Positions 28,090 to 47,954 of a stretch of DNA of 64,000 bases are shown here, in pieces; the first letter of the stretch is position 1; each line of letters starts with the position of its first letter. The stretch comes from Oricola sp. GTDB taxonomy: Bacteria; Pseudomonadota; Alphaproteobacteria; Rhizobiales; Rhizobiaceae. The stretch spans positions 124,001 through 188,000 of the forward strand of contig NZ_JALEGV010000040.1 in the NCBI RefSeq assembly GCF_022763245.1. The letters are read 5' to 3'. The notes beneath the pieces were generated by a model, which did no database searches, was not told the DNA's origin, and saw nothing but the letters and a program-made list of their open reading frames with translations. The translations under genes were made by a program, and so were the position numbers.

Positions 28090-28812
28090 TCACATGGTCC
28101 AGCCCTTGTAGATCAGCCGGACCGCGATCAGCGACACCAGGATGCGGAACAGCTTGCGGAACAGTTCCTCGGACACGTGGTGCGTGACGTGCCGGCCGGT
28201 CCAGGTGCCAGCAAAGCCCGCCACCGAGGCCATCACGATGTGCGGCACGTAGTCGAAATAGCTGAAGCCGTGGCTGACATAGCCGGTCACCTTCATCGCA
28301 TCGAGCATGATCAGGCAGGCAGCGAGCGTTCCGGTGATCTGCAGTTTCAGCAGTCCGGTGCGCAGGATGAAGGGCTGCAGGACGCCACCGACGCCGAACA
28401 GCGCGCCGAGAAAACTGTGCGCGATGCCGATGAAGAAGAACGGATGCCTGATCGGCAGCGGGCGCTTCCATTTCGGCATCCAGATCAGGACGAGCAGCAC
28501 GCAGCCGAGCAGGACCGAGATCGTCGCCTCGGGCAGTTCGGCGAAGGCGCGCGTTCCGAAATAGACGCCGAACAGGCAACCGAAGACAAACAGGCCGACG
28601 ATGCGCCACTGAATGTGCTGCCAGAAATAGCCGATCCGCGCCACGAGCGAGACCGCCGCGAAGGCCGATTGCAGCGGCACGGCGGCCGAGATGGGCAGCA
28701 CCCAGACACTGACCAGCAGCATGATGTAGACGCCGCCGGTCGCGAACGCCGCATTGACAAAAGACGCCGCGAAACTGCCCAGTGTGATGGCCAGAAGGGT
28801 ATGGTCGATCAT
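28090..28812 (-). CDS. TauE/SafE-family (TSUP) membrane exporter, probable sulfite exporter
   Basis: 240-residue membrane protein with about eight hydrophobic segments. It shows the TSUP pattern of two repeats, each with a glycine-rich start (FAASFVNAAFATGGVYIM and FLGALFGVGGVLQPF). TSUP members export sulfite, sulfoacetate and related anions. Its place beside the sHdr locus, divergent from the ArsR-type regulator, fits removal of the sulfite made by that pathway; this is inference from context. The start at 28812 has GGGAG 10 bases upstream; an earlier start at 28902 has no such site. Confidence 0.85.
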   Translation of the reverse strand: MIDHTLLAITLGSFAASFVNAAFATGGVYIMLLVSVWVLPISAAVPLQSAFAAVSLVARIGYFWQHIQWRIVGLFVFGCLFGVYFGTRAFAELPEATISVLLGCVLLVLIWMPKWKRPLPIRHPFFFIGIAHSFLGALFGVGGVLQPFILRTGLLKLQITGTLAACLIMLDAMKVTGYVSHGFSYFDYVPHIVMASVAGFAGTWTGRHVTHHVSEELFRKLFRILVSLIAVRLIYKGWTM

Positions 28813-28991
28813 GAAGGAAGTGCTCCCGGATGGGGGCTCCTTAGCGGGATTGACCGGGTGGAGCAATCGAAGACACCCGCTGCCCCTGGGGCACCCGATC
28901 AATCCGTCGGCATGGCGGCGCTTCGAGGCGCGCGCCTTGCGTTCCGCCGGCCGCGTGCTAGATAATATGGAAGATTCACGGCAGCAGAAAC

Positions 28992-29333
28992 ATGAGTTCA
29001 GCGGACACTATCGCCATGCAAGCGGACGCGCAGGAACAGGCCGTCTCCGGCCAGATGCTGGAGAATGCGGCGCTGACGACGCAATATCTGAAGTCGCTCG
29101 CGCATCCGGCGCGGCTCGTGATCCTCTGCCGTCTTGCCGAGGGCCCGATCAGCGTCGGCGAACTGGAGAGCATGCTCGAATTGCCCCAGGCCGCCGTGTC
29201 CAAGCAACTTGCGCGCCTGCGCGAAGACGGGCTGGTCGATTGCCGGCGCGAGGGACGGTCGATCGTCTACATGCTCGCGGACGACAGAACGCGCAGAATC
29301 ATCCGCGCGCTCTATGACGAATTCTGCAGCTGA
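28992..29333 (+). CDS. shdrR: ArsR/SmtB-type repressor, sHdrR-like
   Basis: 113 residues forming one winged helix-turn-helix (recognition region LELPQAAVSKQLARLREDG, about 62-80). Cysteines are at 46 (LVILC), 84 and 112 (EFCS). In the related sulfur-responsive repressors (SqrR, BigR, SoxR and sHdrR of Hyphomicrobium), two cysteines, one near position 50 and one near the C-terminus, form a sulfur bridge with reactive sulfur and release the DNA. C46 and C112 match that layout. It is divergent from the exporter gene and convergent with tusA (12 bases between stops). It likely represses the sHdr genes. Confidence 0.87.
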   Translation: MSSADTIAMQADAQEQAVSGQMLENAALTTQYLKSLAHPARLVILCRLAEGPISVGELESMLELPQAAVSKQLARLREDGLVDCRREGRSIVYMLADDRTRRIIRALYDEFCS

Positions 29334-29345
29334 GACCGGCAGGCC

Positions 29346-29573
29346 CTAGTTCAGGTTCTTGATCAGGAAGACGTAGGTTCCGCCCTCCTGGCGCGATTCG
29401 AGCAGTTCATTGCCCGTCGAACGGCAGAAGGCCTCGAAATCCTTCACCGAACCCGGATCGGTCGCCTGCACTTCCAGCGTCCCGCCGGTCGGCACTTCCT
29501 TGAGCGCCTTCTTCGCGCGCAGAATGGGCAACGGGCAGTTCAGCCCTTTTGCGTCGAGAACCTGGTCGGCCAT
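29346..29573 (-). CDS. tusA: sulfur carrier protein TusA
   Basis: 75-residue cytoplasmic persulfide carrier. The conserved C13 in LNCPLPIL (CPxP motif) carries the sulfane sulfur. A second cysteine (FCRSTG) lies in the middle of the protein. AGGAGG lies 5 bases before the ATG. It is the last gene of the leftward sHdr locus, separated by 110 bases from the DsrE2-like gene; that gap holds a perfect dyad GGGCGATCGCCC (29588-29599). In sHdr organisms TusA passes sulfur between DsrE proteins and the sHdr complex. Confidence 0.95.
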   Translation of the reverse strand: MADQVLDAKGLNCPLPILRAKKALKEVPTGGTLEVQATDPGSVKDFEAFCRSTGNELLESRQEGGTYVFLIKNLN

Positions 29574-29683
29574 TTTTCCTCCTTTGCGGGCGATCGCCCT
29601 TTAGCCTGTTGATTTGGTCTTTTCGATTGTCCGGGTCAAGCCGATGGCATCGGCGGAACGGACTTTCCCGCCCCGCCAATCAT

Positions 29684-30178
29684 TCAGATGTAGAGGTTGA
29701 TGTCGGTCTTCGACGCGACTTCGATATAGGTCGCCGCGCCGCCGAGCGACGGGCCGTCGATCATGTCCTCGCGCTTGTATTCGAACAGGTCCATGGTCAT
29801 CTGGCAGGCGATCATGTTGACGTCCGCTTCCACGGCAAGTTCGCGCAGATCCTCGATGGAGGCGACACCCTTCTTCTTGATCAGGTTCTTCATCATGCCG
29901 GTCGCCATGCCGTCGACGCCGGGCAGCGCCGAGACGATGTTCGGCATCGCCATGTGCATGCCCATCATCGGCATTTCCATGGCCGGATTGCCCAGCGTCG
30001 AGATCTTCAGGTTCAGATCCTTCTTCAGAAGGCCGAGGCCGTAGAAGGTGAAGAACATCGTCACTTCCAGCCCCATCGCGGCGGCGGTCGTCGCCAGGAT
30101 GAAGGGCGGATAGGCCCAGTCGAGCGTGCCCTTGGTCACGATCATCGACATCGACTTGGCGTTGGTTTCACTGCTCAT
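29684..30178 (-). CDS. DsrE2-like sulfurtransferase
   Basis: 164 residues of the DsrE/DsrF-like superfamily. The stretch GLEVTMFFTFYGLGLLKK (about 37-53) and ACQMTMDLFEYKREDMIDG with C125 are typical of the DsrE2 subgroup; C125 is the expected persulfide site. Met-rich residues 65-80 (MEMPMMGMHMAMP) are a subgroup feature. The ATG at 30178 is preceded by GGGGAG. Such proteins occur with tusA in sulfur-oxidising bacteria and are thought to exchange sulfur with TusA. It lies 34 bases after lbpA, so it is likely cotranscribed. Confidence 0.88.
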   Translation of the reverse strand: MSSETNAKSMSMIVTKGTLDWAYPPFILATTAAAMGLEVTMFFTFYGLGLLKKDLNLKISTLGNPAMEMPMMGMHMAMPNIVSALPGVDGMATGMMKNLIKKKGVASIEDLRELAVEADVNMIACQMTMDLFEYKREDMIDGPSLGGAATYIEVASKTDINLYI

Positions 30179-30212
30179 TTTCGTTTCTCCCCGGCAGGAC
30201 GGCCGGCCATGT

Positions 30213-30656
30213 TCAAGCCGCTGCGCAGCCCTCGAATTCATCGGCGGCCATCTTGGCCTCGTAGGGTCCGGCCACGTCCGAGCCAGGGGTCAGCGATGCG
30301 GCGGCGCCCGGGTCGGTCGGCCTGACCTTCACCATCCAGCCCGCCCCGTAAGTGTCGGAATTTGCGAGCGACGGATTGCCGGCCAGTTCCTCGTTGGCCT
30401 CGATGATCTCGGCCTCGAAACCGATCTTGGCGGGGCCGACCCATTTGCCGGATTCCACCGTCGCGACGGACTTGCCTTCCTTGATCGTCTTGCCCGCCTT
30501 CTTGGCGGTGAAGGCGACGAGCTGGCCGGCCATGCCGATCGCGATCATCGTCATGCCGACGGTCAGGGTTCCGTCGCCATTGTCGCGATACCAGAGATTG
30601 TTGCCGACGTCGTAGAGCAGATCGTCGGGAAGTTCACAGCCACGAACAACGGGCAT
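30213..30656 (-). CDS. lbpA: lipoate-binding protein LbpA (GcvH-like) of the sHdr pathway
   Basis: 147 residues with a GcvH-like lipoyl domain. The lipoyl lysine is K71 in VESGKWVGPAKIG; the SGKWVG context separates LbpA from glycine-cleavage GcvH. The C-terminal extension ends in GCAAA. In sHdr organisms LbpA carries lipoate that holds the sulfur intermediate during oxidation to sulfite and does not take part in glycine cleavage. AAAGGAGG lies 6 bases before the ATG, an unusually strong site that suggests high expression. It sits after the 157-residue protein and before the DsrE2-like gene. Confidence 0.95.
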   Translation of the reverse strand: MPVVRGCELPDDLLYDVGNNLWYRDNGDGTLTVGMTMIAIGMAGQLVAFTAKKAGKTIKEGKSVATVESGKWVGPAKIGFEAEIIEANEELAGNPSLANSDTYGAGWMVKVRPTDPGAAASLTPGSDVAGPYEAKMAADEFEGCAAA

Positions 30657-30675
30657 GTCGTGCCTCCTTTTGCGG

Positions 30676-31149
30676 TTACGCCGATTCGGCGATTGGATTG
30701 AGCGTTTCGGGCTGACGGACCGGTCGCGACGAACAGCAGAATTCGCCCAGGCCGGCTTCCTGCAGCTTGCCGCCGATGAACAGCGCGAGATGCGCCACGA
30801 CCATCGCGCCAAGACGAAGAGTGCGCGCGACATCCGGCGATGCCGGATCGTGCAGGATCAGGTTTCGGTGATAGACGACTTCGCGGCAGGTTTCGCGGCA
30901 GGCGTTGAAGCTCGGATCGCCCTTCGCGCCCTGGCGATGCAGCGCGAGGAGCCGGAACCCCTCGACCTCGCCGTCCGCCGGTGCCCTGCCCTTCGACGCC
31001 AGCCAGGCGAGCAGCACCGCCTCGCCCAGTTCGAGAAGCTCATCGGCGAGCGCCGTCGCATCGCGCGACAGCGCGTCATCGGTCATCGCGACAATCGCGT
31101 CGGCCCGCTGCTGCACATCGTCGATCGAGAGAAGCGCTGCGCCGCTCAT
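30676..31149 (-). CDS. conserved hypothetical between shdrB2 and lbpA, cysteine-containing
   Basis: 157 residues, predicted mostly helical, without signal peptide or membrane segment. It has a C84-x3-C88 pair (CRETCREVVYHRN) and a C138-C139 pair near the C-terminus (GEFCCSS), which suggests thiol chemistry or metal binding. The ATG at 31149 overlaps the shdrB2 stop (ATGA) and has AAAGGGG upstream. I do not recognise a named family. Tight coupling to shdrB2 on one side and a 19-base gap to lbpA on the other argue that it works with sHdr-LbpA, possibly in assembly or sulfur handling. Confidence 0.75.
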   Translation of the reverse strand: MSGAALLSIDDVQQRADAIVAMTDDALSRDATALADELLELGEAVLLAWLASKGRAPADGEVEGFRLLALHRQGAKGDPSFNACRETCREVVYHRNLILHDPASPDVARTLRLGAMVVAHLALFIGGKLQEAGLGEFCCSSRPVRQPETLNPIAESA

Positions 31150-32069
31150 GCCAGCCCCTTTTCCCTGATCAGCGGCATGGCGTCGGAGAAGTTTTCCTGC
31201 ACGCCGACGGCCTTGGGCTTCAAGCCGAGCGCCATGCCGAGAAGCTGGGTGAAATAGAGGATCTTCACGCTCGTCTTGCGGCCGAGCACCTTCTCGGCGC
31301 GGACCTGGTGCATCTCCAGCCCGGTGTGACAGGTCGGGCATTCGGTCGCGATCACGTCGGCGCCGCAGGCCTCGGCCGTGGTGAGAAGATTGAGCACCAG
31401 CTTGGTCGAGGTGTCGCTGTCCGACAGCGCATGCGCGCCGCCGCAGCAGGCGGTCTTGAGCGGGTAATCGACATTCTCCGCGCCGGCGGCCGCCAGGATC
31501 TCGTCCATGAAATGCGGCTTCGATGTGGATTCGGTGCCCGGCCCCTTGTCCTTTTCGGGGAAGATGTGGCGCGGCCTCGTGTACATGCAGCCATAGTAGT
31601 TGGCGACCTTCAGGCCCTTCAGCGAGTTCTTCACGCGCTGGCGGATGCCTTCCTCACCGATGGAATGCTTGATCCAGTCGAGCGCGTGGATCGTCTCCAC
31701 CTTGCCGCTTTCATAGGTCGCGTGGCCGGCCTTGCTGCTCAGCCGCTCGTTGACCTCGCGCGACGGCTCGTCATTGGCGAGATCGTATTCGGCCTTCTTC
31801 AGATTGTGGTAGCAGCCATTGCAGGGCGCCATCACGGTGTCGAAGCCCATGTCGTCGGCGATCGAGAGGTTGCGCGCCGACAGATAGGTCTGCAGCTTCG
31901 GGTCGATGTTCTTGACCTCCATCGCGCCGCAGCAGTTCCAGTTCTTCAGCTCGACCAGATCGAGACCGAGCTTCTTGCCGACCGCCTTGGTGGAGCGGTT
32001 GTAGGCATGGCCCGTGCCTTCCAGCGCGCAACCGGGGTAATAGGCGACCTTCTGATACTTGCCGGTCAT
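31146..32069 (-). CDS. shdrB2: sHdr subunit HdrB2 (two CCG domains)
   Basis: 307 residues with two complete CCG cysteine motifs: C14, C46-C47, C83 and C86 in the first half; C161, C208-C209, C244 and C247 in the second. In heterodisulfide reductases these motifs bind the non-cubane [4Fe-4S] clusters of the catalytic site. In the sHdr complex HdrB2 is a likely site for the sulfur-to-lipoate chemistry. The start at 32069 overlaps the HdrC2 stop (ATGA) and has GGGAG upstream. It belongs to the C1-B1-A-hyp-C2-B2 series. Confidence 0.95.
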   Translation of the reverse strand: MTGKYQKVAYYPGCALEGTGHAYNRSTKAVGKKLGLDLVELKNWNCCGAMEVKNIDPKLQTYLSARNLSIADDMGFDTVMAPCNGCYHNLKKAEYDLANDEPSREVNERLSSKAGHATYESGKVETIHALDWIKHSIGEEGIRQRVKNSLKGLKVANYYGCMYTRPRHIFPEKDKGPGTESTSKPHFMDEILAAAGAENVDYPLKTACCGGAHALSDSDTSTKLVLNLLTTAEACGADVIATECPTCHTGLEMHQVRAEKVLGRKTSVKILYFTQLLGMALGLKPKAVGVQENFSDAMPLIREKGLA

Positions 32070-32815
32070 TGTTCCGCTCCCTTCGCGTCGAGACCGAGCG
32101 CCTTGCGGTTGGATTGTTCGACTTCCTCGACATAGGCGTTGATCGCGTCGCGCGCCCTGCCCCAACCGCTCGTCTTCGGGCGAAACACCGTCGCCAGCCC
32201 GAGTCGGACCATGTAGAGGACCGGGAACTTCCGCATGAGCCCCTTTACCAGGGCCACCAGCCAGGGCTGCGTCAGCGGCTGGTTGGTGCCCTTGAAGAAC
32301 TGGCGCAGGACCAGGCCGTCCTCGATCTTGCCGGTCTCGAAGACCTGATGGGAAAAGGCCTCGTCGAAGATCATCGAGGGCTTCTTCTCGGTGTGACCCT
32401 TCAGTTCGAGCCAATGGGCGGTCGCCTTCATCACCCCTTCCGGGTTGACGTCGCGCGGGCAGGCATAGGTGCATTTGTTGCAGGACACGCACTGCCAGAT
32501 GATGTCCTTGTCGCGCAGCAGTTCCGATTCCATCCCCATGCGGATCAGGTAGATCCAGTAGCGCGGATTGAAATCCGGATTGATGGCGTTGACCGTGCAG
32601 GCATTGGTGCAGGAGCCGCATTGCCAGCAACGGTGGATGTTCTCGCCGCCGCCGAGCGCTGCGATTTCTTCCTGCATCTCCTCATTGTAGTCGCTGACGG
32701 CCCGGGTCTCGATGAAGGTCGACCAGTGGCCCGACACGTCGACGCCGTCGATGACAAGTTCCTCGTGCTCGACGAGGTTCTCCGGCCGGATCAGGGACTT
32801 CTCGTGAATCGGCAT
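32066..32815 (-). CDS. shdrC2: sHdr subunit HdrC2 (two [4Fe-4S] ferredoxin motifs)
   Basis: 249-residue electron-transfer subunit. Cluster 1 ligands are C63, C66, C69 and C73 (CWQCGSCTNAC); cluster 2 ligands are C109, C112, C115 and C119 (CVSCNKCTYAC). It has no membrane segment, so the complex is cytoplasmic. It would carry electrons between HdrB2 and HdrA. Its ATG overlaps the stop of the 291-residue hypothetical by one base (TGATG). Confidence 0.95.
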   Translation of the reverse strand: MPIHEKSLIRPENLVEHEELVIDGVDVSGHWSTFIETRAVSDYNEEMQEEIAALGGGENIHRCWQCGSCTNACTVNAINPDFNPRYWIYLIRMGMESELLRDKDIIWQCVSCNKCTYACPRDVNPEGVMKATAHWLELKGHTEKKPSMIFDEAFSHQVFETGKIEDGLVLRQFFKGTNQPLTQPWLVALVKGLMRKFPVLYMVRLGLATVFRPKTSGWGRARDAINAYVEEVEQSNRKALGLDAKGAEQ

Positions 32816-33690
32816 CAGGATGCCTCCGTATGTGGAATCCGCGGCTGTTCGCCCAGCACATGTGCGGTGCCGTCGATCAGCTTCAGGCGCGTGCGGCCGG
32901 TTTCGGTGTCCACGGCGTCGAGGCCGAGCATGCGGCGCGTATGCGCCATCGGATCGCCGGTGCTGGAGAAATCGGAACGCAGATACTGACCGCCGCGATC
33001 GTTGATGTAGGCGGCATAGACATGGGCGAGCAGCAGGTCTGCATAGAACGACAGGTCGCGGAAGACGCCGTTCTCCTTCAGGAAACCGTCGAGTTCATCG
33101 CCGAGCTTGGCGAAGGTCCGGTAGTCGTCCTCAACCTCGATACGCGCGAGATCGACATCGTCGGCGAACCAGATTTCGCGCAGCGCGCCCGTGCCGACAC
33201 GGCGGTCCCAGACCCAGCGCGTCATCAGCGGATAACGATCGGGCGCGACGAAGTGCAGGATCTCAGCCCCCAGATCGCGCACCCAGCGATGCTCGCGATC
33301 GGCCGGGAAAGCCATCACGAAATCGCGCAGCCGCCGGTCGGCCGTATCGACATCCGACCACCCGTCCAGCAGGTCGACGATCCGCTTGTGCAGGCGCTCG
33401 AACCCGTTCGCGCCAAGCCACGGCCCGACGCGACGGCGCACCGGCGTGATGAAGGCGGCGAGATCGAGGAACTCCTGCTCGGTCATCTCGGCGACACGGC
33501 CCTTGCCGAGCACTTCCTCGAACAGCGACGCCTTGAGCGCCAGCGCGCCGACATAGCGCTCCACGCCGCCGGTCGCTTCCGCCGACTCGATCAGGTGCTC
33601 CAGCGCCCGGCGCAGCCGCGGACCGGAGAGGTCCAAGACCGGGCCTTTCGGTTCGGGCGCCGCGGCCGGCTTGCGCGCCAGGCCGAACAT
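32815..33690 (-). CDS. conserved hypothetical embedded between shdrA and shdrC2
   Basis: 291 residues, acidic/basic mixed, without cysteines in a cluster pattern and without a signal or membrane segment. I do not recognise a named domain. It contains HRWVRDLGAEILHFVAPDRYP and DFSSTGDPMAHTRRMLG. It is locked into the operon by one-base overlaps on both sides (TAATG with shdrA, TGATG with shdrC2). Type I sHdr clusters elsewhere carry a 'hyp' gene at exactly this place, so it is a recurrent partner rather than a chance insertion. Its function is unknown; a role in complex assembly or stability is plausible. Confidence 0.85.
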   Translation of the reverse strand: MFGLARKPAAAPEPKGPVLDLSGPRLRRALEHLIESAEATGGVERYVGALALKASLFEEVLGKGRVAEMTEQEFLDLAAFITPVRRRVGPWLGANGFERLHKRIVDLLDGWSDVDTADRRLRDFVMAFPADREHRWVRDLGAEILHFVAPDRYPLMTRWVWDRRVGTGALREIWFADDVDLARIEVEDDYRTFAKLGDELDGFLKENGVFRDLSFYADLLLAHVYAAYINDRGGQYLRSDFSSTGDPMAHTRRMLGLDAVDTETGRTRLKLIDGTAHVLGEQPRIPHTEAS

Positions 33691-34742
33691 TATTCGGCGG
33701 CCTCCATGACCCGGTTGCGCGGCATGTTCAACGCCGCCATGGCCGCGGCTTGTCCCTGGGCGATGGAGTCGTCGATCGTTTCCGGCCCGGACGCCGATCC
33801 GGCGACGAACACACCCGGCCGGTTGGTCTCGGCCAGATGCGCGTAGGTCGAGGCCTTGTCGATGTAGCCGTATTTGTTCAGCTTGACGTCGAAGACCGCC
33901 GACAGGGTCATGTTGTCGACATTCGGGTCCATGCCGATCGCATGCACGACCATGTCGAAGGGGATCGAGATCGGCCGCTTGACCAGCGTGTCCTCGCCCT
34001 TCACCAGCAGGCGCTTGCCGTCGGACGTCACCTCGGCGATGCGGGCCTTGATGTACTTGACCTTGTACTCTTCCTGGCTGCCCCAATAATATTCGCCCTC
34101 GTAGAGGCCGAAGGTGCGGATATCCATGTAGTAGATGTAGACGTTGCAGTTCGGCAGCGCCTCGCGGATTTCCATGGCGATGTTGGCCGAGACCGTGCAG
34201 CAAATCTTGGAGCACCATTCGCGGCCGATCTGGCGGTCGCGCGAGCCGACGCAGAGGAGAATCGCGACGCGGTCCGGCGCACGCCCGTCCGACGGGCATT
34301 TCACCCCTGCGCCCGAGGACAGCATCTGTTCCACCTGGGTCGTGGTGACGACGTCGGGATAGGTGCCGAACCCCCATTCCGGCTTGTTGACGCTGTCGAA
34401 ATGGGTGAACCCGGTCGCGAGGATCGCAGCGTCCGCCTCGACGGTCGTTCCGTCCTTCAAGGTCGCGACGAAGTCGCCCGGATTGCCGGCGAACGTATCG
34501 ACGGAGGCGCCCAGGCGGATGTCCACGTTTTCACGGTTCTCGACGCGCGTCACCATTCCGCCGATCGCGTCCTTGGCCCATTCATGGCTCGGCACCAGCC
34601 GGGCATAGCCAGACAGGATCGGCGCGCCGCCGAGACGATCCTCCTTTTCGACCAGGACCACCTTCTGACCGGCGGACGCCACCGCATGCGCGGCCGACAG
34701 GCCGGCGGGGCCACCGCCGACGATGAGAACGGGCTTGCTCAT
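33690..34742 (-). CDS. shdrA: sHdr subunit HdrA (FAD-binding)
   Basis: 350-residue flavoprotein. The N-terminal dinucleotide motif is VLIVGGGPAGLSAA (about 5-18), and the second FAD motif near the C-terminus is GVFVAGSASGPETIDDSIAQG (shown in part). Cysteines C164, C177, C181 and C182 (CVGSRD...CSKICC) can hold an Fe-S cluster. It is much shorter than methanogen HdrA (about 650 residues), as is normal for the sulfur-oxidising sHdr type. It would pass electrons from sulfur oxidation to NAD+ or another carrier. Its ATG overlaps the HdrB1 stop by 4 bases. Confidence 0.95.
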   Translation of the reverse strand: MSKPVLIVGGGPAGLSAAHAVASAGQKVVLVEKEDRLGGAPILSGYARLVPSHEWAKDAIGGMVTRVENRENVDIRLGASVDTFAGNPGDFVATLKDGTTVEADAAILATGFTHFDSVNKPEWGFGTYPDVVTTTQVEQMLSSGAGVKCPSDGRAPDRVAILLCVGSRDRQIGREWCSKICCTVSANIAMEIREALPNCNVYIYYMDIRTFGLYEGEYYWGSQEEYKVKYIKARIAEVTSDGKRLLVKGEDTLVKRPISIPFDMVVHAIGMDPNVDNMTLSAVFDVKLNKYGYIDKASTYAHLAETNRPGVFVAGSASGPETIDDSIAQGQAAAMAALNMPRNRVMEAAE

Positions 34743-36109
34743 TCAGCGCCTCCCGCAAGAGCTTTCGGTTTGACGTAGCCGGGGCCTGACGTGATGGCGC
34801 GCTTCGGGTCGTAAAGCGTCTCGATGCGGCCGGCCTTGACCTCGTCGAGATAGCTTTCGAATTCCGCCTTCGCCTTCTCCCAGTCGATGCCCATCTTCTC
34901 CAGCAGCGTCTCGAAGGGCGATGCGTGCCAGTGCAGCTGGGCCAGCTTGTAGGGGTGCGCGCCGCAGGCCAGCGCAGCGAACTGGCAATCGGCCATGATC
35001 GGCAGCGCATAGACCTTGTCGACGGCCTTGCCGATCCACTGGTTCTTGTCGAGCGTGGTGATGCAGCCGGTGTCGTGACCGATCATCACGTCGGCGCGGG
35101 CTTCCTCGACCGCGACACGCACCTTGCGGTCGATGGCGAAAGAGCGGGTGAATTCGCGCTCGCCGATGATGTGGCGGAAGCCGAAGCCGCAGCAATCGTA
35201 CCAGGTCGAATAGTCGATCACGTTCGCGCCGAGCGTCTCGAGCAGGCCGGTGGTCACCGCGACCCGGTTTCCGTCCAGAACCGTGTCGTCATAGATCACG
35301 TCTTCCGGAACCATCTTGTAGACGTGGCAGGCCGGATGCACCGTCGAGCGGATGCCGCTGACGTCGACCGTCTGGTGCTCCTTGATCCGGTCGCGCACGA
35401 CATGCAGCCACTCGGAGTAATGGACGATCTCTTCGGGGATCAGCAGCTTGCCGTCGACGAGGCGGCCGAGCTTGGCGAGGATCTTGCGCACTTCTTCACG
35501 CAGCTCTGCAGAATGCAGAAGGAAGCCTCTGATTTCCTTGTAGTTTCCGAACGACGTTCCGCAGTGGACGAGCGGGTAGTAGGTGCCTTCGGGCAGCCCC
35601 TGCGACTTGGCCGAGACATAGGCCTGGTGGAAATTGCGCAGAAACACGGCGGCCAGCGACACGACGTTGCCGATGCCGGAGCCGTGATAGTTCCAGGCCG
35701 TGCACGAGGTCTGATCGGTCTCGTCGAGATAGGCGACGTCGAGCTTGTTCATCAGCCAGAGGACCGAACTCGGATAGCCCGGGATGTTGCCGCACTGGCC
35801 GCAGGATTTGTGATGCCACAGATTGTTGGTCGGGATCTTCTTGTCCCAGCCATAGAGCGTCTTGGCGATGACGGGATCGTTGTGGTCGCCCACCCGGTGG
35901 ACGAGGATTTCCCCGTCCTTCTCGAGCTGCCACATGATGTCGCGCACGTCTTCCTTGCGCTCTTTCGACGTCAGCAGCGCCCGCTTGTCGATCCTGGTCT
36001 CGACCCAATCCGTGGCGCGGCGCGCCTCCTCAGGCGTCAGCTTGCTGGCCTGCCAGTCGGCGCCAAAGCCGCCATAGGCGCCCTTCCCGATGTCCTGTTC
36101 GTTTGCCAT
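34739..36109 (-). CDS. shdrB1: sHdr subunit HdrB1
   Basis: 456 residues. Cysteine-rich segments are at C103/C106 (SCGQCG), C136, C183, C261, C306-C307 (YDCCGFGF), C349 (HDTGC), C375 and C382. The CCG pattern is modified: the last part reads D-T-G-C instead of C-x-x-C, and the spacing is longer than in HdrB2. In the sHdr complex, HdrB1 and HdrB2 sit at two different sites. The N-terminal 100 residues are an extension compared with HdrB2. Its neighbour hdrC1 starts 43 bases upstream, and it is coupled to shdrA by ATGA. Confidence 0.93.
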   Translation of the reverse strand: MANEQDIGKGAYGGFGADWQASKLTPEEARRATDWVETRIDKRALLTSKERKEDVRDIMWQLEKDGEILVHRVGDHNDPVIAKTLYGWDKKIPTNNLWHHKSCGQCGNIPGYPSSVLWLMNKLDVAYLDETDQTSCTAWNYHGSGIGNVVSLAAVFLRNFHQAYVSAKSQGLPEGTYYPLVHCGTSFGNYKEIRGFLLHSAELREEVRKILAKLGRLVDGKLLIPEEIVHYSEWLHVVRDRIKEHQTVDVSGIRSTVHPACHVYKMVPEDVIYDDTVLDGNRVAVTTGLLETLGANVIDYSTWYDCCGFGFRHIIGEREFTRSFAIDRKVRVAVEEARADVMIGHDTGCITTLDKNQWIGKAVDKVYALPIMADCQFAALACGAHPYKLAQLHWHASPFETLLEKMGIDWEKAKAEFESYLDEVKAGRIETLYDPKRAITSGPGYVKPKALAGGAE

Positions 36110-36152
36110 GCCTTCACTCCTCCGGCATCGTTGGCGAGACGGTTACCCCGCC

Positions 36153-36899
36153 TCAGTCGTCATCGTCCTCGTCGTCGTCTTCATTGTCCTCGAGCCACTC
36201 CTCCCACTCCTCGCGCTTCTCATCCATCACGTCGGACACCACGTCGAAGAGGTTCTCGTCGACGGTTTCCAACTGGTCGAGAACGCCTGTGGCCTCCCAG
36301 ATCGTGTAGAGCTCGACGGAGGTTTTCAGATTGACCTCCCAGGCCGTGTCTAGCGTGTGCATGGTCGGCATCGGAATGGCCTTGCGCAGGATGTTGAGCG
36401 GCGCGTCGACCTTGGCCACGTTCGGGCCCCAGTCCGGGAACGCCTCCTTGGTGATCATGTTAGGAGCGAGCTGGTTGCCGGTCGAAATCACCTTCAGGAG
36501 GACGCGGCTGAACGGCCGCAGCACTTCCTTGGCCGACTCCATCTCATGCTTGATCGCCACTTCGCGCATGATCATCACGAGCCCGCCCGGAGAGTTCTCG
36601 AACGGGCAGCGCGCGGCGCAGGTGTAGCACTGGGCGCAGGCCCAGATCTTCTCCTGCATGGCGTCGTAGATGCCCTCGAGATTTTCTGTCCACAGAAGCT
36701 GGACGATCTCGCGCGGCGAATAGTCGTAATAATGGGCCGACGGGCAGGTCGCGGTGCAGATGCCGCAGTTCAAACATCCATGAATTTCATGGTCATAGAC
36801 GGCATGGCTGCGAATGTCGTCGAAGATCTCCTCCAGCTTCTCCCGCGGCACGGCGGGCGCTTCGGAGATCGGGTCGCTGATCTGGGCGTGTGCGGTCAA
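36153..36899 (-). CDS. shdrC1: sHdr subunit HdrC1 (two [4Fe-4S] ferredoxin motifs)
   Basis: 248 residues. Cluster 1 ligands are C42, C45, C48 and C52 (CLNCGICTATC); cluster 2 ligands are C88, C91, C94 and C98 (CAQCYTCAARC). It is the first structural subunit gene of the complex, 39 bases after the small dsrE gene. The C-terminus is an acidic tail (DNEDDDEDDDD, preceded by EEWEEWLE), with no known role in electron transfer. The tail may help folding or docking of basic partners. Confidence 0.95.
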   Translation of the reverse strand: MTAHAQISDPISEAPAVPREKLEEIFDDIRSHAVYDHEIHGCLNCGICTATCPSAHYYDYSPREIVQLLWTENLEGIYDAMQEKIWACAQCYTCAARCPFENSPGGLVMIMREVAIKHEMESAKEVLRPFSRVLLKVISTGNQLAPNMITKEAFPDWGPNVAKVDAPLNILRKAIPMPTMHTLDTAWEVNLKTSVELYTIWEATGVLDQLETVDENLFDVVSDVMDEKREEWEEWLEDNEDDDEDDDD

Positions 36900-36938
36900 A
36901 GTCTCCTCCAGTCAACCGTTTGCCCGCTCGGTGGTGGC

Positions 36939-37319
36939 CTAGTAGGTCAGCACCTTTGCGTCGTCATTCTCCATGATCTCCTCGATCACCTTCGCACCCC
37001 CGACGATGCCCTCGCATTCGGGAATGAGGTCGTCTTCCGTCATGTCGAACAGGTCGAGATTGGGCGAGCAGCAGAAGAACTTCGCGCCCGCCTCATGCGC
37101 GTCCTTGATGAAGTCGTAGACGGTCTTCGGCGAGCCCGGCTTGACGACGAGCTTCTCGGCGACGCCCTTCTTCATCAACTGGCCGGCGGTGGCGGTGCAG
37201 ATGACCTCGACCTCGTAGTCCATCGCCGCCGCGACGGTGGCCTGGAAAAACGGTGCGCCCAATTCCTCACCGTTTCTCGGATCGGTATTCACCATGACGA
37301 TAATGAGCTTGTCCGCCAT
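36939..37319 (-). CDS. DsrE3-like sulfurtransferase of the sHdr locus
   Basis: 126 residues, a single DsrE/DsrF domain. The candidate sulfur-carrying cysteines are C83-C84 (KFFCCSPNLDLFDM); C41 and C102 are further cysteines. The C-terminus reads GGAKVIEEIM, typical of small DsrE proteins next to shdrC1. Partner proteins in other sulfur oxidisers mobilise sulfane sulfur and give it to TusA. The start at 37319 has AGGGAG 6 bases upstream. It heads the leftward hdr operon and has its own 130-base upstream region with a candidate operator at 37395-37416. Confidence 0.9.
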   Translation of the reverse strand: MADKLIIVMVNTDPRNGEELGAPFFQATVAAAMDYEVEVICTATAGQLMKKGVAEKLVVKPGSPKTVYDFIKDAHEAGAKFFCCSPNLDLFDMTEDDLIPECEGIVGGAKVIEEIMENDDAKVLTY

Positions 37320-37394
37320 GTCTCTCTCCCTGTGGTCGCGAGCGCCTCCGAACTCTTTGCGGTTCGTTACAGCATGGATCGCATGCCAAAAATG

Positions 37395-37416
37395 ATACAT
37401 GTCAAAAATGGAATAT
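37395..37416 (-). promoter_or_regulatory. candidate operator A, upstream of dsrE-shdrC1B1A operon
   Basis: Read leftward, the 22-base stretch (ATATTCCATTTTTGACATGT plus AT) matches the element at 39297-39318 in 16 of 22 positions. Both elements end exactly 76 bases upstream of the next start codon (37319 and 39221). It includes a TTGACA hexamer. The shared position suggests binding by one regulator, with sHdrR the obvious candidate. Binding is not shown by sequence alone. Confidence 0.55.
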
Positions 37417-37449
37417 GCAAACGCGATTTCGTCGCGGAACGAAAGGCGG

Positions 37450-38139
37450 TCACATGAGGCCGGCGTGGCGGACAATGCCGACCATCAAGGTCGAGAGCGC
37501 GCCGGCCACCGCTTGCTGGGCCTCGCCGAGCGCTTGCAGCGCCTCCACGGTGTTGTCGGGCGTTTCGGAGAATTCCATGATCACGTCCTCGGCCATGCCG
37601 CGCTTCATTCCTGGGTGTCCGAGAAAGCCGAGGCAATTCCCCCGAAGCGAAAACACCAGCGGCTCGCCCTGCCCGTCGCGCGCCAGGACCTCCGCATCCG
37701 CCGGCAGAACCGGCCGATCACGCAGATAGCAGGCCAAGGGGAACTGATCCGGCATATGGCCGCCGAGCAACCCGGCACGGACGGCATGCGCGATCGGCAC
37801 CTCGAAACGCAGCGGCGCCTCTTCCGCGCCGCCGCCCGCCGCAACCGCCAGGATGACCGCGCCGAGGCCCAGCCCGACCACGGGCAGACCGGCATCGAGA
37901 AACCCCTTCGTCAGGCGCATCTCCGGCCCCATGGAGGGCAGCAGATGGCCGCTCACCATGCCATACGGCCCGCCGCCCAGCAGGATCAGCCCGTCAAACC
38001 CCTCCGGGCTCGCGGGGACTGTCCCGCCTGAGGCGAACGGGCGCTGATAGAGGAAACGCACATTGCGCCCCTCGAGATGGTCCTCCATGAGGCCGAGATA
38101 TTCGGCCTCGGTATGCTGCATGACGCAAACTGTCCGCAT
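37450..38139 (-). CDS. class I glutamine amidotransferase-like protein lacking the catalytic cysteine
   Basis: 229 residues with the GATase1 fold (GMP-synthase-like): LILLGGGPYGM (about 61-70), then VVGLGLGAVILA where active enzymes have G-x-C-x-G-x-Q. The nucleophile position is G91 (codon at 37867-37869), and the HPE motif reads H175-P-G177. Both the cysteine and the glutamate of the triad are thus missing; in pyrG of this window they are present (GICFGMQ). It cannot be an ordinary glutaminase. It lies 5 bases after the lipoate ligase and before the dsrE operon, so a role as binding or scaffold protein in lipoate/sulfur handling is possible. Confidence 0.8.
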   Translation of the reverse strand: MRTVCVMQHTEAEYLGLMEDHLEGRNVRFLYQRPFASGGTVPASPEGFDGLILLGGGPYGMVSGHLLPSMGPEMRLTKGFLDAGLPVVGLGLGAVILAVAAGGGAEEAPLRFEVPIAHAVRAGLLGGHMPDQFPLACYLRDRPVLPADAEVLARDGQGEPLVFSLRGNCLGFLGHPGMKRGMAEDVIMEFSETPDNTVEALQALGEAQQAVAGALSTLMVGIVRHAGLM

Positions 38140-38144
38140 GGCGA

Positions 38145-39221
38145 TCAGATCGACGGATGCGCCGCCGATACGATCGCGGTGGCGATGTCCGCGCCGGCGA
38201 CGCCGGGCATTTCGACGCCGAGGCGCTTCATCGCTTCATCGGCGGCCTGCGCCAATTGCTCCTGATCGACGGCGACCCCCGCCAATGCGCCGGCAAGCCG
38301 GTCGATGCCGTCTGGCGGCAGGCAGGTGAAATCGCCCGAGATCATCAGATCCTCGACCGTCTTGTCGCGCGCCAAAAGGTGCACTCGGATGAGCCCACCG
38401 GGCGCCTTGTGCGCGCTCTCGGTCAGATGCGTGCCCTCTGAGATCTTCACCCCCATCTCGACCAACTTGCGCCCCTGCATGTAGGTCCATGACGGGTCGC
38501 TCAGCGAGGCCTCTGCCTTGTCGATCGCCGCAAGCTCCTCGGCCGTCGGCTGATCCTCGACCGGCTCGACCTTCAGCACCTCCGCGCAATTGGCGAGGAA
38601 CATCGCCTTCAGCGTGTCGCGCGCCGGCGCCTCCGGCAGTTCCTTCGCCATGGTCGTCATGTAGTCGTCCAGCGTCTGGCGCAGCTTGTCGCGGAACTTC
38701 TCGCTCGGCACCTTCAGGCAGCGAGCCATCGTCTCGGTGTCGAAATCATACATGAAGCTGCCGACCATCAACGTCGCCTCGCCGATCGACGCGGCTCCGG
38801 TTCCACCGATCTTTCGGCCATTCACCTGGATGTCGTTGATCGGCCGATACGCCGCTTGCACGCCGAGCTGGTTGTACGTCCGCACGACCGGCTCGATGAA
38901 CATCGGGTAGAGATTGGCGGCGAATTCCGGCGCCTTGCCGCTCGGATAGATGAAGTGGGTGAAGAGCTGGTTCTCGTCGAGATAGACCGCCCCGCCGCCG
39001 ACATGCCTGCGATAGACCGGCAGGTTCTGCGCCTTGCAGTAGTCCTCGTCGACTTCCTTGGCGATCTCCTGGTGCATCCCGATGCAGACATAGGGCGTCT
39101 CGGGCGACACCAGGCACAACACGGGATCGCTGTCCGCCGTTATCGTCTCGGCAATGCCGTGATAGACGGCCTGGCTGCGCAGCGCCGACACCTTTCCGAA
39201 GTCGAATACCCGAAGTCTCAT
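38145..39221 (-). CDS. slpl: sHdr-associated lipoate-protein ligase (sLpl)
   Basis: 358 residues combining a catalytic LplA domain and an accessory LplB-like C-terminal domain (about 255-330; GGLIRVHLLARDKTVEDLMI). Catalytic motifs are RRHVGGGAVY (71-80) and the adenylate-binding lysine K137 in NGRKIGGTGAA. Ligases of this group attach lipoate or octanoate specifically to LbpA and not to glycine-cleavage or dehydrogenase proteins. It heads a two-gene unit with the amidotransferase-like gene. Genes for the partner lipoyl synthases LipS1/LipS2 and for LipT are not in this window. Candidate operator B lies 76 bases upstream. Confidence 0.93.
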   Translation of the reverse strand: MRLRVFDFGKVSALRSQAVYHGIAETITADSDPVLCLVSPETPYVCIGMHQEIAKEVDEDYCKAQNLPVYRRHVGGGAVYLDENQLFTHFIYPSGKAPEFAANLYPMFIEPVVRTYNQLGVQAAYRPINDIQVNGRKIGGTGAASIGEATLMVGSFMYDFDTETMARCLKVPSEKFRDKLRQTLDDYMTTMAKELPEAPARDTLKAMFLANCAEVLKVEPVEDQPTAEELAAIDKAEASLSDPSWTYMQGRKLVEMGVKISEGTHLTESAHKAPGGLIRVHLLARDKTVEDLMISGDFTCLPPDGIDRLAGALAGVAVDQEQLAQAADEAMKRLGVEMPGVAGADIATAIVSAAHPSI

Positions 39222-39296
39222 AGGTTCCTCCCTTGAGAGCCGCGCGGCCGCGCGGCGTCACGAGCGAGTTTCGCCAGACACGCGGCAATGTCAAAT

Positions 39297-39318
39297 ACAC
39301 ATTACGGAAATGGCATAT
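39297..39318 (-). promoter_or_regulatory. candidate operator B, upstream of the slpl unit
   Basis: Read leftward (ATATGCCATTTCCGTAATGT plus GT), it agrees with operator A at 37395-37416 in 16 of 22 positions and has the same 76-base distance to the start codon. A TTGACA hexamer follows about 3 bases further on. Together with A it suggests coordinated control of the two leftward sHdr transcription units. Confidence 0.55.
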
Positions 39319-39333
39319 TTCGTGCGAAAGATG

Positions 39334-39627
39334 TCAGTACAGCGTGTGCCAGGGATGCTGCGCCGGTGTCGCTTCCGGATGCGCCTTCAGGAAGTGGTGC
39401 AGGACATGGAGCAAGGTGCGGACATGGGCGCCGTCGCCGCGTTGCTGCGCCTCGCGGATGTCATCGACGATCATCCGGCAGATGTCCTCGGAACCGTGGT
39501 CCTTGTGCGCCAGATACTGTGCATAGGCGATCGCCGCCATTTCAGGCATGTGCTCGTGTTCGGCAATGGCGAGCACTTCCTCTTCAGTCAGATCACAGAA
39601 GCCGAGGCAGTCTTCGAGCGAGATCAT
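39334..39627 (-). CDS. conserved hypothetical at the edge of the sHdr locus
   Basis: 97 residues, probably all helical, cytoplasmic. The N-terminus ISLEDCLGFCDLTEEEVLAIAEHEHMPE, given here in part, holds two cysteines (C7 and C11) and several histidines; more histidines occur near the C-terminus (HVLHHFLKAHPE). No named domain is recognised. It is leftward like the sHdr genes and lies 112 bases before slpl, with operator B between, so it may be a separate short transcript. Whether it belongs functionally to sulfur oxidation is not known. Confidence 0.75.
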   Translation of the reverse strand: MISLEDCLGFCDLTEEEVLAIAEHEHMPEMAAIAYAQYLAHKDHGSEDICRMIVDDIREAQQRGDGAHVRTLLHVLHHFLKAHPEATPAQHPWHTLY

Positions 39628-40713: not shown

Positions 40714-42366
40714 TCAGCCGGCCTTGCCGCGATATTTGACCGTCAGTTCCGGATCAACTTCGCTGCCGTCATAGAGGCCGAGCAGGATGCCCATGCGGCG
40801 CGACCGGCCCCGCTTGGATATGATATCGTCGTCGGAAATCGCGGTTCGCTGCGCCATGCGCCGCGACCAGACCGCAAGACGCTCATACATCATGTCGACC
40901 ACGCCGGCATGTTCAGCGCTCTCGCCGAGATCGACGAATTCCTGCGGGTCGTTCTGCATGTCGAAGAGCATCGGCCGCATGCCGCCCTCGGCGTGCATGA
41001 ATTTCCATCGCTTGTCGGCGATCATGAACAGGCGCGCGTCGCGGGGCGCGACACCCAGCTTCACCGCCATCGGCGTCGCCGAATAGTCATACTCGCTGAC
41101 GACGAAATCACGCCACGCCTCGGGTTTCTCGCCACGCAGGAAGGGCGCGAGCGACCGGCCCTCGACGATGTGGTCCGGCACCTTGCCGCCCGCAGCCTCG
41201 ATGAAGGTCGCGGCCAGATCGATGCCCTCGACCAGTTCGTCGCAGACGGTGCCGCGCGTCGCGTCGGCATCAGCAGACGGATCGTAGACGATCAGCGGCA
41301 CCTTGACCGACTGCTCGTGGAACAGATCCTTTTCGCCCAGCCAGTGATCGCCCAGATAATCGCCATGGTCGGAGGTCAGCACGATCATCGTGTCGTCGAT
41401 CCGGCCCGTGTCCTCCAGGAACTTCATCAGGCGCCCGAGTTCGTCGTCGCACTGCTTGATCAGGCCCATATAGGCGGGAATGACCTTTTCGCGCACCTCG
41501 TCGCGCGAGAAGGCCTGGCCGATGGCGTTGCCCATGAAGGCCCCGTAGACCGGGTGCGGCGCCTCGCGCTCGTCCGGATGGCGCACGGCCGGCAGGATCT
41601 GGTTGCGGCCATACATGTCGTGATACGGCGCCGGCACGATATAGGGCCAGTGCGGCTTGATGTAAGACAGATGGCACATCCACGGCGCGGGATCGTCGTC
41701 GCGCGCGCCGAGGAACTCGATCATCCGATCCGTCAGCCAGGGCGTCTCGGAATCGGCTTTGTCGATATTGGCCGGCTGGTCGGCGTGTTTCATGAACCAG
41801 CCCGACGCAAGGTCGCCATCCTCGGTGACGCCGGAATTGGCGAAATCGTGCCAGGGGTTGCCTCCCGCATATCCCTTCGATTTCAGGAATTCGTTGTAGG
41901 GGGAGCGCTTGGCGTCGTAGAAGCCGTCCGGCCCCTCTCCCCACAGGCCGTCGTCGCGGATGAAGACATCGAAGCCGCATTCCGAAACGCGCGCGCCGAT
42001 GACGCCGTCGCGGGCGATGCCGAGACGGTTCATGCCCTCCTCGTCGACCTTCATGTGTGTCTTGCCGATCAGCCAGGACTGCATGCCGAGCTTGCGCAAA
42101 TGGTCGCCGACCGTCTGCTCGCCGACCTTCAGCGGAAAATTGTTCCAGGCCGCGCCATGGCTGCTGACATAGCGGCCGGTATAGGTGCTCATCCGCGACG
42201 AGCCGCACACCGGCGACTGCACATAGCAGCGGGTGAAGCGCACGCCGCGCGCCGCCAGCGCGTCCATATGCGGCGTTTCCAGCCAGGGATGACCGGCACA
42301 GCTCAAATAATCGAACCGGAGTTGGTCATACATGATGAAGAGAATGTTGCGGATCTTGCGCGCCAT
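40714..42366 (-). CDS. type I sulfatase-family hydrolase
   Basis: 550 residues of the alkaline phosphatase/sulfatase superfamily. N-terminal metal residue D14 is in IMYDQLRFDYL; the C-terminal metal site is LTSDHGDYLGDHWLGEKD; also SYIKPHWPY. The formylglycine site reads C54-G-S-S-R58 with TGR at 63-65; the usual C-x-P-x-R has serine in place of proline (or alanine). No signal peptide, so it acts in the cytoplasm on imported sulfate or phosphonate esters. It is the last gene of a leftward operon with a TAXI-type TRAP transporter, separated from it by a hairpin. The substrate is unknown. Confidence 0.88.
   Translation of the reverse strand: MARKIRNILFIMYDQLRFDYLSCAGHPWLETPHMDALAARGVRFTRCYVQSPVCGSSRMSTYTGRYVSSHGAAWNNFPLKVGEQTVGDHLRKLGMQSWLIGKTHMKVDEEGMNRLGIARDGVIGARVSECGFDVFIRDDGLWGEGPDGFYDAKRSPYNEFLKSKGYAGGNPWHDFANSGVTEDGDLASGWFMKHADQPANIDKADSETPWLTDRMIEFLGARDDDPAPWMCHLSYIKPHWPYIVPAPYHDMYGRNQILPAVRHPDEREAPHPVYGAFMGNAIGQAFSRDEVREKVIPAYMGLIKQCDDELGRLMKFLEDTGRIDDTMIVLTSDHGDYLGDHWLGEKDLFHEQSVKVPLIVYDPSADADATRGTVCDELVEGIDLAATFIEAAGGKVPDHIVEGRSLAPFLRGEKPEAWRDFVVSEYDYSATPMAVKLGVAPRDARLFMIADKRWKFMHAEGGMRPMLFDMQNDPQEFVDLGESAEHAGVVDMMYERLAVWSRRMAQRTAISDDDIISKRGRSRRMGILLGLYDGSEVDPELTVKYRGKAG

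Positions 42367-46319: not shown

Positions 46320-47954
<1,635 letters not shown>

Follow-up and report, generated by a model that had tools for sequence, protein, structure and literature searches.

A second type of lipoate ligase in place of the LipS1/LipS2 genes in an sHdr-LbpA cluster of Oricola sp.

Judging from its genes, the Oricola sp. studied here appears to be a heterotrophic-type alphaproteobacterium with the known sHdr gene set in which the LipS1/LipS2 cofactor genes have been swapped for an unstudied ligase, here called ligase B. The replacement is seen in gene content. We suspect that LbpA in this organism is matured by a route unlike the published one, probably by a second dedicated ligase combined with LipA or lipoate uptake; we infer both that LbpA is the substrate and where its sulfurs come from.

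Results

The sHdr-LbpA cluster

The region from 29.0 to 39.2 kb of the 64-kb stretch of DNA analysed (the window) is a complete sHdr-LbpA cluster (Table 1), consisting of shdrC1-B1-A-hyp-C2-B2, lbpA, dsrE2, dsrE3, tusA, lipX, one ligase and an ArsR repressor. As sequence tests of membership in such clusters, we found the shdr genes in this order with their Fe-S and CCG motifs, and a linked lbpA with its lipoyl lysine. Both sHdrC1 and sHdrC2 have two CxxCxxCxxxC clusters, and the CCG domain matches twice in sHdrB2 and once in sHdrB1. The comparison set comprised 80 loci fetched via an sHdrB1 profile, out of 512 reported matches, and homologues of window genes were sought within the DNA fetched per locus (tblastn, E 1e-4). 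As far as each contig extends, the same gene order recurs in the 80 loci; the cluster is therefore not due to chance, and mis-annotation is likewise ruled out.

All of the shdr, lbpA, tusA and two DsrE-type genes named in the original prediction were found, as was the lipoyl lysine that it read in SGKWVG. Its extent of 11.5 kb is too generous: the conserved unit, compared across the 80 loci, runs from about 28992 to 39221, and tblastn at E 1e-4 found homologues of the TSUP gene and the 97-aa ORF in none of the 80 (nor of the endonuclease/phosphatase and sulfatase genes). LbpA is 59-83% identical to the LbpA of six other loci, and ESGKWVG is present in 66 of 66 aligned LbpAs. The predicted sHdrR-like repressor is borne out by two conserved Cys at the spacing found in the sulfane-sulfur sensors sHdrR, SoxR, SqrR and BigR, which for H. 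denitrificans sHdrR is described in PMC12423496; against the BigR model it scored 93.7, below the cut-off of 155.

Table 1. Positions of the cluster genes and selected neighbours in the window.
Feature	Position	Strand	Basis and remarks
TSUP (TauE/SafE) membrane protein	28090..28812	-	Pfam PF01925 5.3e-25; neighbour, outside conserved cluster
sHdrR-like ArsR repressor	28992..29333	+	Cys46/Cys112, spacing 66 as in H. denitrificans sHdrR Cys50/Cys116
tusA, sulfurtransferase	29346..29573	-	CPLP motif; PF01206 7.5e-24
dsrE2, sulfur carrier	29684..30178	-	NCBIfam NF047629 234.6 bits, cut-off 210
lbpA, lipoate-binding protein	30213..30656	-	PF01597 1.2e-29; lipoyl lysine in ESGKWVG
Conserved 157-aa protein	30676..31149	-	C-terminal FCC; 68/80 loci; alignment
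shdrB2	31146..32069	-	CCG domain x2; 93% to O. nitratireducens
shdrC2	32066..32815	-	Two 4Fe-4S motifs
shdr-hyp, conserved subunit gene	32815..33690	-	No Pfam; 76/80 loci
shdrA, FAD subunit, HdrA-like	33690..34742	-	NF040770 225.8 bits, far under cut-off 1100; 75-89% to sHdrA of five loci
shdrB1	34739..36109	-	PF02754; alignment; query behind the 80 loci
shdrC1, TTG start	36153..36899	-	Two 4Fe-4S motifs
dsrE3-type sulfur transferase	36939..37319	-	PF13686/PF02635; 75/80 loci
lipX, glutamine-amidotransferase-like	37450..38139	-	GLGLG for GxCxG (no catalytic Cys), HPG for HPE
Ligase B, window-type lipoate:protein ligase, LplA + LplB domains	38145..39221	-	PF21948 2.6e-38, PF10437 8.4e-06; tree; fold model
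97-aa ORF, no family	39334..39627	-	Not conserved in sHdr loci; cluster membership doubtful
pyrG, CTP synthase	46320..47948		Pfam

Two conserved genes, lipX and the 157-aa gene between shdrB2 and lbpA, had been passed over in the original prediction. The 157-aa protein has an all-helical predicted model (pLDDT 86); its fold search returned weak HEPN-like matches alone (best E 0.31), and an assignment of function from fold was dropped. Class I glutamine amidotransferases carry a nucleophilic Cys in a GxCxG motif and a Glu in HPE, and the Cys is seen in 9xfs. LipX has neither: across 66 copies, the Cys column holds Gly in 52, Glu in 13 and Asn in one, and the Glu column is Gly in all 66. Its label as a glutamine amidotransferase is thus called into question.

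Genomic context

No sox genes were noticed in the window, as the original prediction stated, but the proposed genome search for soxXYZAB found soxB, soxA, soxX, soxY and soxZ, and soxC as well, all on contig C12, separate from the contig with the sHdr locus. The pyrG gene is about 7 kb off with at least two genes between, so that the cluster abuts it in a loose sense at best. The idea of an acquired sulfur island fits the patchy distribution of the cluster: sHdrB2 at 75% identity or more occurs in two of six genomes of the genus and in 7 of 61 relatives, a count that includes the source genome itself, and in Oricola nitratireducens the cluster sits among different neighbour genes. Its GC content is not unusual, however, and gives no signal of an island. 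A rhizobial-type host for sHdr is not new, since in Devosia nanyangense, according to PMC12423496, a regulator gene lies near an shdr cluster.

Ligase B

Ligase B occupies the place held in other loci by lipS1-lipT-lipS2-slpl(AB), and is 27-33% identical to sLpl(AB). It has the RRxxGGG motif, the Lys column that we take to be catalytic, and a predicted two-domain fold, that is, an LplA fold with an LplB domain; an alignment of 24 copies shows no variation in RRxVGGG or in the Lys of GRK. The predicted model (pLDDT 86.6) matches the LplA/LplJ-type structures 1vqz, 6jom, 8cri and 5icl over both domains, with TM scores of 0.67-0.72 (query length) and 21-23% identity. By sequence, the PDB matches of ligase B lean towards 1vqz and those of the sLpl(AB)-type ligases towards the archaeal 2ars.

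In the ligase tree, B and A (the sLpl(AB) type) form two groups with support of 100/100 and 99/97, and B falls outside the group of ligases adjoining LipS1/S2; with three clade-2 references, one archaeal reference and very long branches, this tree gives B a tentative deep placement. For that reason, and as NCBIfam scores do not split the two types, ligase B was assigned to neither clade 2 nor clade 3 in the scheme of Tanabe et al. Of 30 loci holding ligase B (29 of the 80 fetched, plus the window), all have lipX, 28 have the ligase adjoining it on the same strand, and none shows lipS1, lipT or lipS2 in the locus comparison. No second ligase was found in the source genome at E 0.001. Among the 61 relatives, three have ligase B at 67% identity or more, all with sHdr. 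Oricola nitratireducens has an slpl(AB)-type gene in addition to ligase B. A change in LbpA tracking ligase type was also considered and rejected: by a threshold of our own, only three columns split 15 B-only from 18 A-only LbpAs, none of them near the lysine.

LipS1 and LipS2 across sHdr genomes

In the source genome (G000, 98.8% complete), LipS1 and LipS2 gave no match at E 0.001 and no sLpl(AB)-type ligase was found; LipT was not found in the locus. The maturation genes thus differ from the known set: the genome search for lipS1 and lipS2 proposed in the original prediction returned neither, and the dedicated lipoate ligase named there is present but is not the type at the published slpl(AB) position. 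LipA is present (379.7 bits, cut-off 310.25).

Of the 50 sHdr genomes searched, 30 have LipS1 together with LipS2 and the other 20 have neither; in 49 of the 50, the chosen loci had ligase B in view in 28, sLpl(AB) in eight (one with both) and neither in 14. Ligase B is carried by 19 of the 20 LipS-less genomes and by 12 of the 30 others (Fisher p 7e-5 over 50 genomes, with kinship and choice of loci ignored). To say that ligase B means no LipS would thus be too strong. Since 12 genomes carry both, we describe the replacement as following a stage in which ligase B and LipS coexisted. The sole LipS-less genome without either ligase, G062 (same contig as G036), has a locus that breaks inside lipX at the contig end.

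On the best sHdr tree (built from 74 of 81 rows after removal of those with under 60% of the columns, which cost L071 and L081 among those searched), LipS needs at least 11 changes, and a single loss is not supported. Over nine independent pairs, with L036 also left out and 47 of the 50 genomes remaining, ligase B never changed in the same direction as LipS: on average 5.1 pairs were opposite and 3.9 tied, and the sign test gave a median p of 0.0625, above 0.05.

Ligase B and LbpA outside sHdr clusters

A class-wide draw of 385 contained five genomes with B-like ligases (33-51%) and no sHdr (sHdrB2 at E 1e-100 and sHdrB1 at E 0.01 gave no match in them), so that ligase B cannot be taken to mean sHdr. 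In three of the five, the B-like ligase, DsrE3 and LbpA are encoded side by side without an sHdrB1 match, which ties the ligase to LbpA; in one more, dsrE3 lies beside the ligase.

Discussion

A cluster of this kind is described as needed in H. denitrificans for forming sulfite from thiosulfate (PMC10332631; PMC6067878). By the role known from that organism, the TusA and DsrE proteins would pass sulfane sulfur to sHdr and LbpA in the cytoplasm, yielding sulfite. Ligase B would activate free octanoate or lipoate and join it to the LbpA lysine, and either LipA, working on octanoyl-LbpA, or scavenged lipoate would supply the sulfurs in place of LipS1/S2. What the analysis itself establishes is gene content and order, the ligase phylogeny, the presence of LipA, the conserved ligase motif, the predicted fold and, within the sensitivity of the searches, the lack of LipS1/S2. 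LipA action on octanoyl-LbpA is not assured, because the attachment machinery of E. coli and B. subtilis is described as leaving LbpA unmodified (PMC6067878, PMC10332631). That canonical attachment enzymes refuse LbpA (PMC6067878) also speaks for an unrelated enzyme, rather than LipA, inserting the sulfurs in LipS-less genomes, which we consider improbable; the neighbours of ligase B were compared with the window genes and LipS1/T/S2 only.

It is similarly unlikely that the targets of ligase B are the housekeeping lipoyl proteins (PDH, OGDH, GcvH) and that the ligase is merely located in the cluster, with LbpA inactive or matured otherwise. Its LplA fold with both domains, its sequence and fold matches to broad LplA ligases and the B-like ligases of five sHdr-less class members would suit such a role. 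However, ligase B at 67% or more is missing from 58 of the 61 relatives, including all 54 without sHdrB2 at 75%, and both its adjacency to lipX and the lbpA and dsrE3 genes beside its sHdr-less relatives argue for a dedicated function. Still harder to sustain is the view that LipS1/S2 are missing because of gaps in the assemblies and that the published pathway operates everywhere. Many LipS-less genomes are titled MAGs, completeness is established for four genomes only (G000; G035, 100%; G036, 96%; G390, 97%), and G062 and G082, both LipS-less, are without LipA as well. Yet LipS2 is found in neither G000 nor the complete G035, and neither LipS1 nor LipS2 in G000 or G076 (same contig as G035). 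LipS1 and LipS2 are jointly missing in 20 of the 50 sHdr genomes while LipA passes the cut-off in 47 (17 of the 20 LipS-less), and their absence accompanies ligase B.

More tentatively, the same LbpA may have two deeply separate maturation modules, the archaeal-type sLpl(AB)-LipS1/S2 module possibly having been lost in several lineages once its task had passed to a second dedicated ligase, which joined LbpA to the ordinary LipA of the cell or to lipoate uptake. If so, the ligase-dsrE3-lbpA trio without sHdr would imply a further use of LbpA. According to Tanabe et al. 2023 (PMC10332631), 74.3% of sHdr bacteria have LipS1/S2, leaving about a quarter without; the authors pose the question of whether LipS1/S2 are a strict requirement for LbpA assembly. 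The source genome and 18 other LipS-less genomes with ligase B offer a concrete candidate answer. If it is correct, screens of genomes for sulfur oxidisers would no longer have reason to read missing LipS1/S2 as the sign of a defective pathway.

The cluster resembles the lip-shdr-lbpA locus of H. denitrificans as described in PMC10332631, PMC10451225 and PMC12423496, with lipX followed by dsrE3, shdrC1B1A-hyp-C2B2, lbpA, tusA and an ArsR repressor with a Cys pair. Unlike that locus, it has another ligase instead of lipS1-lipT-lipS2-slpl(AB) before lipX, and unlike H. denitrificans, which PMC10451225 names among organisms that lack SoxCD, the source genome has soxC. With the sLpl(AB)-LipS1/S2 assembly pathway it shares a ligase with fused LplA and LplB parts that adjoins lipX and shdr and has LbpA as its expected substrate, but the ligase is of low identity and in a separate tree group, and the genome and locus yielded no LipS1/LipS2 and no LipT, respectively. 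Ligase B is like canonical LplA/LplJ-type ligases in its predicted fold over both domains, and differs from them in sequence and in its genomic tie to lbpA.

Cluster, host genome and sulfur supply

The original prediction of a complete sHdr-LbpA cluster in this Oricola genome (G000; 5.63 Mb, 98.76% complete) is borne out: all of the named genes are present in order with intact motifs, and the cluster itself is a further member of an already known system. The window is positions 124001-188000 of its contig C17. The minus-strand order is ligase B (a ligase with LplA and LplB domains), lipX, dsrE3, shdrC1, shdrB1, shdrA, a hypothetical gene, shdrC2, shdrB2, a 157-aa gene, lbpA, dsrE2 and tusA, after which an ArsR repressor gene lies on the plus strand. 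The iron-sulfur and CCG motifs, the LbpA lysine and the TusA CPLP motif are retained, and Cys46 and Cys112 of the repressor have the spacing of Cys50 and Cys116 in sHdrR of Hyphomicrobium denitrificans.

Features in the window and at its sHdr cluster
Feature	Position	Strand	Remarks
157-aa protein gene	30676-31149	-	Between shdrB2 and lbpA; in 68 of 80 sHdr loci; FCC close to the C-terminus is invariant; helical model with weak HEPN-like fold matches
lipX	37450-38139	-	Glutamine-amidotransferase-like sequence
Ligase B gene	38145-39221	-	LplA and LplB domains
Sulfatase/PehA-like esterase gene	40714-42366		Adjoins the cluster; no homologue found among the other 80 loci

Among 61 relatives (G000 counted), 7 have sHdrB2 with at least 75% identity, including two of the six genomes of the genus; a class-wide draw of 385 genomes gave sHdrB2 at E 1e-100 in 10. 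The cluster proteins of O. nitratireducens are 65-96% identical to those of the window, and when the 64-kb window was compared in translation with 45 kb surrounding their genes, all 55 strong matches fell within the cluster. The proposal of an acquired island is thus upheld in part, as the patchy distribution and changed neighbours suggest that the cluster has moved, but GC content gives it no support. Proteobacterial-like sHdr clusters also occur in MAGs titled Exiguobacterium, Klebsiella pneumoniae and Terriglobia (L100, L106 and L076); these MAGs may be mislabelled, or their bins may be mixed.

The soxXYZAB genes, for which a genome search had been proposed, are all found on contig C12 of G000, in a 19-kb locus (L205) with soxXAYZB and soxC. 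SoxB, SoxA, SoxX, SoxZ and SoxC exceed the NCBIfam cut-offs, SoxY was recognized by Pfam, and a putative SoxD was judged by sequence and position alone. Two TsuA/SoxT-like transporters and a Blh-like dioxygenase, both kinds below cut-offs, lie in the same locus. SoxB exceeds its cut-off in 24 of the 50 genomes searched below.

Two ligases and the distribution of LipS1 and LipS2

Two ligase types were distinguished at the 81 loci compared (80 fetched with an sHdrB1 profile, and the window): ligase B, and the sLpl(AB)-type published as the partner of LipS1 and LipS2. In a tree of 57 ligases the window-type (31) and sLpl(AB)-type (18) sequences separate with supports of 100/100 and 99/97. The names LipS1, LipT and LipS2 in the fetched loci, none titled Hyphomicrobium, follow H. 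denitrificans gene order rather than protein comparison; Radical_SAM was recognized in the two LipS proteins and FAD domains in LipT. Ligase B is present in 29 of the 80 fetched loci, 30 with the window. All 30 have lipX, beside the ligase on one strand in 28, and none has lipS1, lipT or lipS2. Two or three of these genes are in view at 17 of the 20 sLpl(AB)-type loci. One of the 81 loci has both ligases, and 32 have neither in the DNA seen. Of two genomes from the same taxonomic order as G000 (Hyphomicrobiales), G056 has lipS1, lipT, lipS2 and a ligase before lipX, and G054 has lipS1, lipS2 and a ligase there; the window ligase is 27% identical to these ligases. Four of the sHdr genomes (L184-L187) have a third type, in which an LplA-like catalytic part is joined to a C-terminal part rich in Cys.

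The genome-wide search for LipS1 and LipS2 covered 50 genomes: G000 and those that carry 49 of the 80 fetched loci. Ligase B is in view at 28 of the searched loci and the sLpl(AB)-type at 8 (one has both); 14, of the 32 such loci, show no ligase. LipS2 was found in 30 of the 50 genomes and LipS1 in the identical 30. Neither was found in G000 at E 0.001. Because both queries reached homologues at 35-38% identity (in G109), limited sensitivity does not account for these absences. Window-type ligases (at least 47% identity) occur in 31 genomes: 19 of the 20 that lack LipS1 and LipS2, and 12 of the 30 that have them (Fisher p = 7e-5, in a test that ignores kinship and the selection of loci). The single LipS-less genome without the ligase, G062, has a locus cut inside lipX and lacks LipA too; it is also the only one of the 14 without a ligase in view that has no LipS2. 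LipA exceeds its cut-off in 47 of the 50 genomes, including 17 of the 20 LipS-less ones, G000 among them.

A tree built from concatenated sHdr proteins (74 rows, SH-aLRT support only) requires at least 11 changes for LipS and at least 10 for ligase B. In 9 independent pairs the two differed in the same way in none, in opposite ways in 5.1 on average, and were tied in 3.9 (median p = 0.0625). In O. nitratireducens a lipS1-lipT-lipS2-ligase block lies on a different contig from the cluster, and the sLpl(AB)-type match of G072 carries an in-frame TGA. It looks as if one module was lost repeatedly, with the second ligase already in place.

LipX

LipX has been described as a putative glutamine amidotransferase by Tanabe et al. 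(PMC10332631). Among 66 aligned copies (the window and 65 loci) the nucleophile column holds Gly in 52, Glu in 13 and Asn in one, with a catalytic cysteine in none, while all 66 have Gly in place of the Glu of HPE. With both residues missing, glutaminase chemistry is unlikely. LipX is present at 30 of 30 ligase B loci and 18 of 20 sLpl(AB)-type loci, and since it is kept with either ligase its role seems independent of LipS1 and LipS2. To judge from these alignments, LipX is a predicted pseudo-amidotransferase retained with both ligase types. We recognized no published description of the missing cysteine in the open-licence literature (supplements excluded).

Function of ligase B

Ligase B has catalytic and LplB domains, all 24 aligned copies share RRxVGGG and the Lys of GRK, and its model (pLDDT 86.6) matches LplA structures across both domains. 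On these grounds the enzyme is expected to activate free octanoate or lipoate by adenylation and to attach it. We infer that its acceptor is LbpA, because the genes are linked, high-identity ligase B is restricted to 3 of 61 relatives, all with sHdr, and three genomes without sHdr keep the two genes together. In the latter (G460, G383 and G287; 88-95% complete) a ligase at 41-51% identity adjoins DsrE3 (63-65%) and LbpA (40-42%). Their LbpAs keep the ESGK lysine motif, and that of G383 matches GCV_H. A further use of LbpA outside sHdr is possible. Formate dehydrogenase genes and a branched-chain amino-acid-type ABC transporter lie beside these groups (L194, L195 and L198). LbpA hardly differs in alignment between the two ligase states, and ESGKWVG is present in all 66 aligned copies.

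Speaking against a strict tie of ligase B to sHdr are five genomes of the class-wide draw that have B-like ligases (33-51%) and gave neither sHdrB2 (E 1e-100) nor sHdrB1 (E 0.01). Six further genomes have ligases at 26-30% and no sHdrB2 at E 1e-100. Among the 10 sHdrB2 genomes of this draw, with all 385 searched for ligases at E 1e-20, ligase B is present in two (G000, and G390 at 63%), seven have a match at 27-34%, the level given by the sLpl(AB)-type, and G388 has none. Because B-like ligases exist without sHdr, our confidence is slightly lowered, and we still think it reasonably probable that LbpA is matured by a second dedicated ligase, with LipA or lipoate uptake replacing LipS1 and LipS2.

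Comparison with known systems

What merits follow-up here is a new variant, in which the ligase is swapped and LipS1 and LipS2 are lost. In the open-licence literature without supplements, we recognized no published description of shdr loci with a ligase of a second lineage; the tables of Tanabe et al. may already record it. Cao et al. (2018) mention three bacterial genomes without homologues of the biosynthetic genes. According to two studies (PMC10332631; PMC10451225), lipX-dsrE3C-shdr of H. denitrificans is preceded by a lipS1-lipT-lipS2-slpl(AB) block, and sLpl(AB) is required for holo-LbpA and for thiosulfate oxidation. In the window, by contrast, the position of this block holds a single, different ligase. 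According to PMC10451225, SoxCD completes the cycle in the periplasm and SoxCD-less systems are joined to cytoplasmic oxidation, whereas G000 has soxC and sHdr together.
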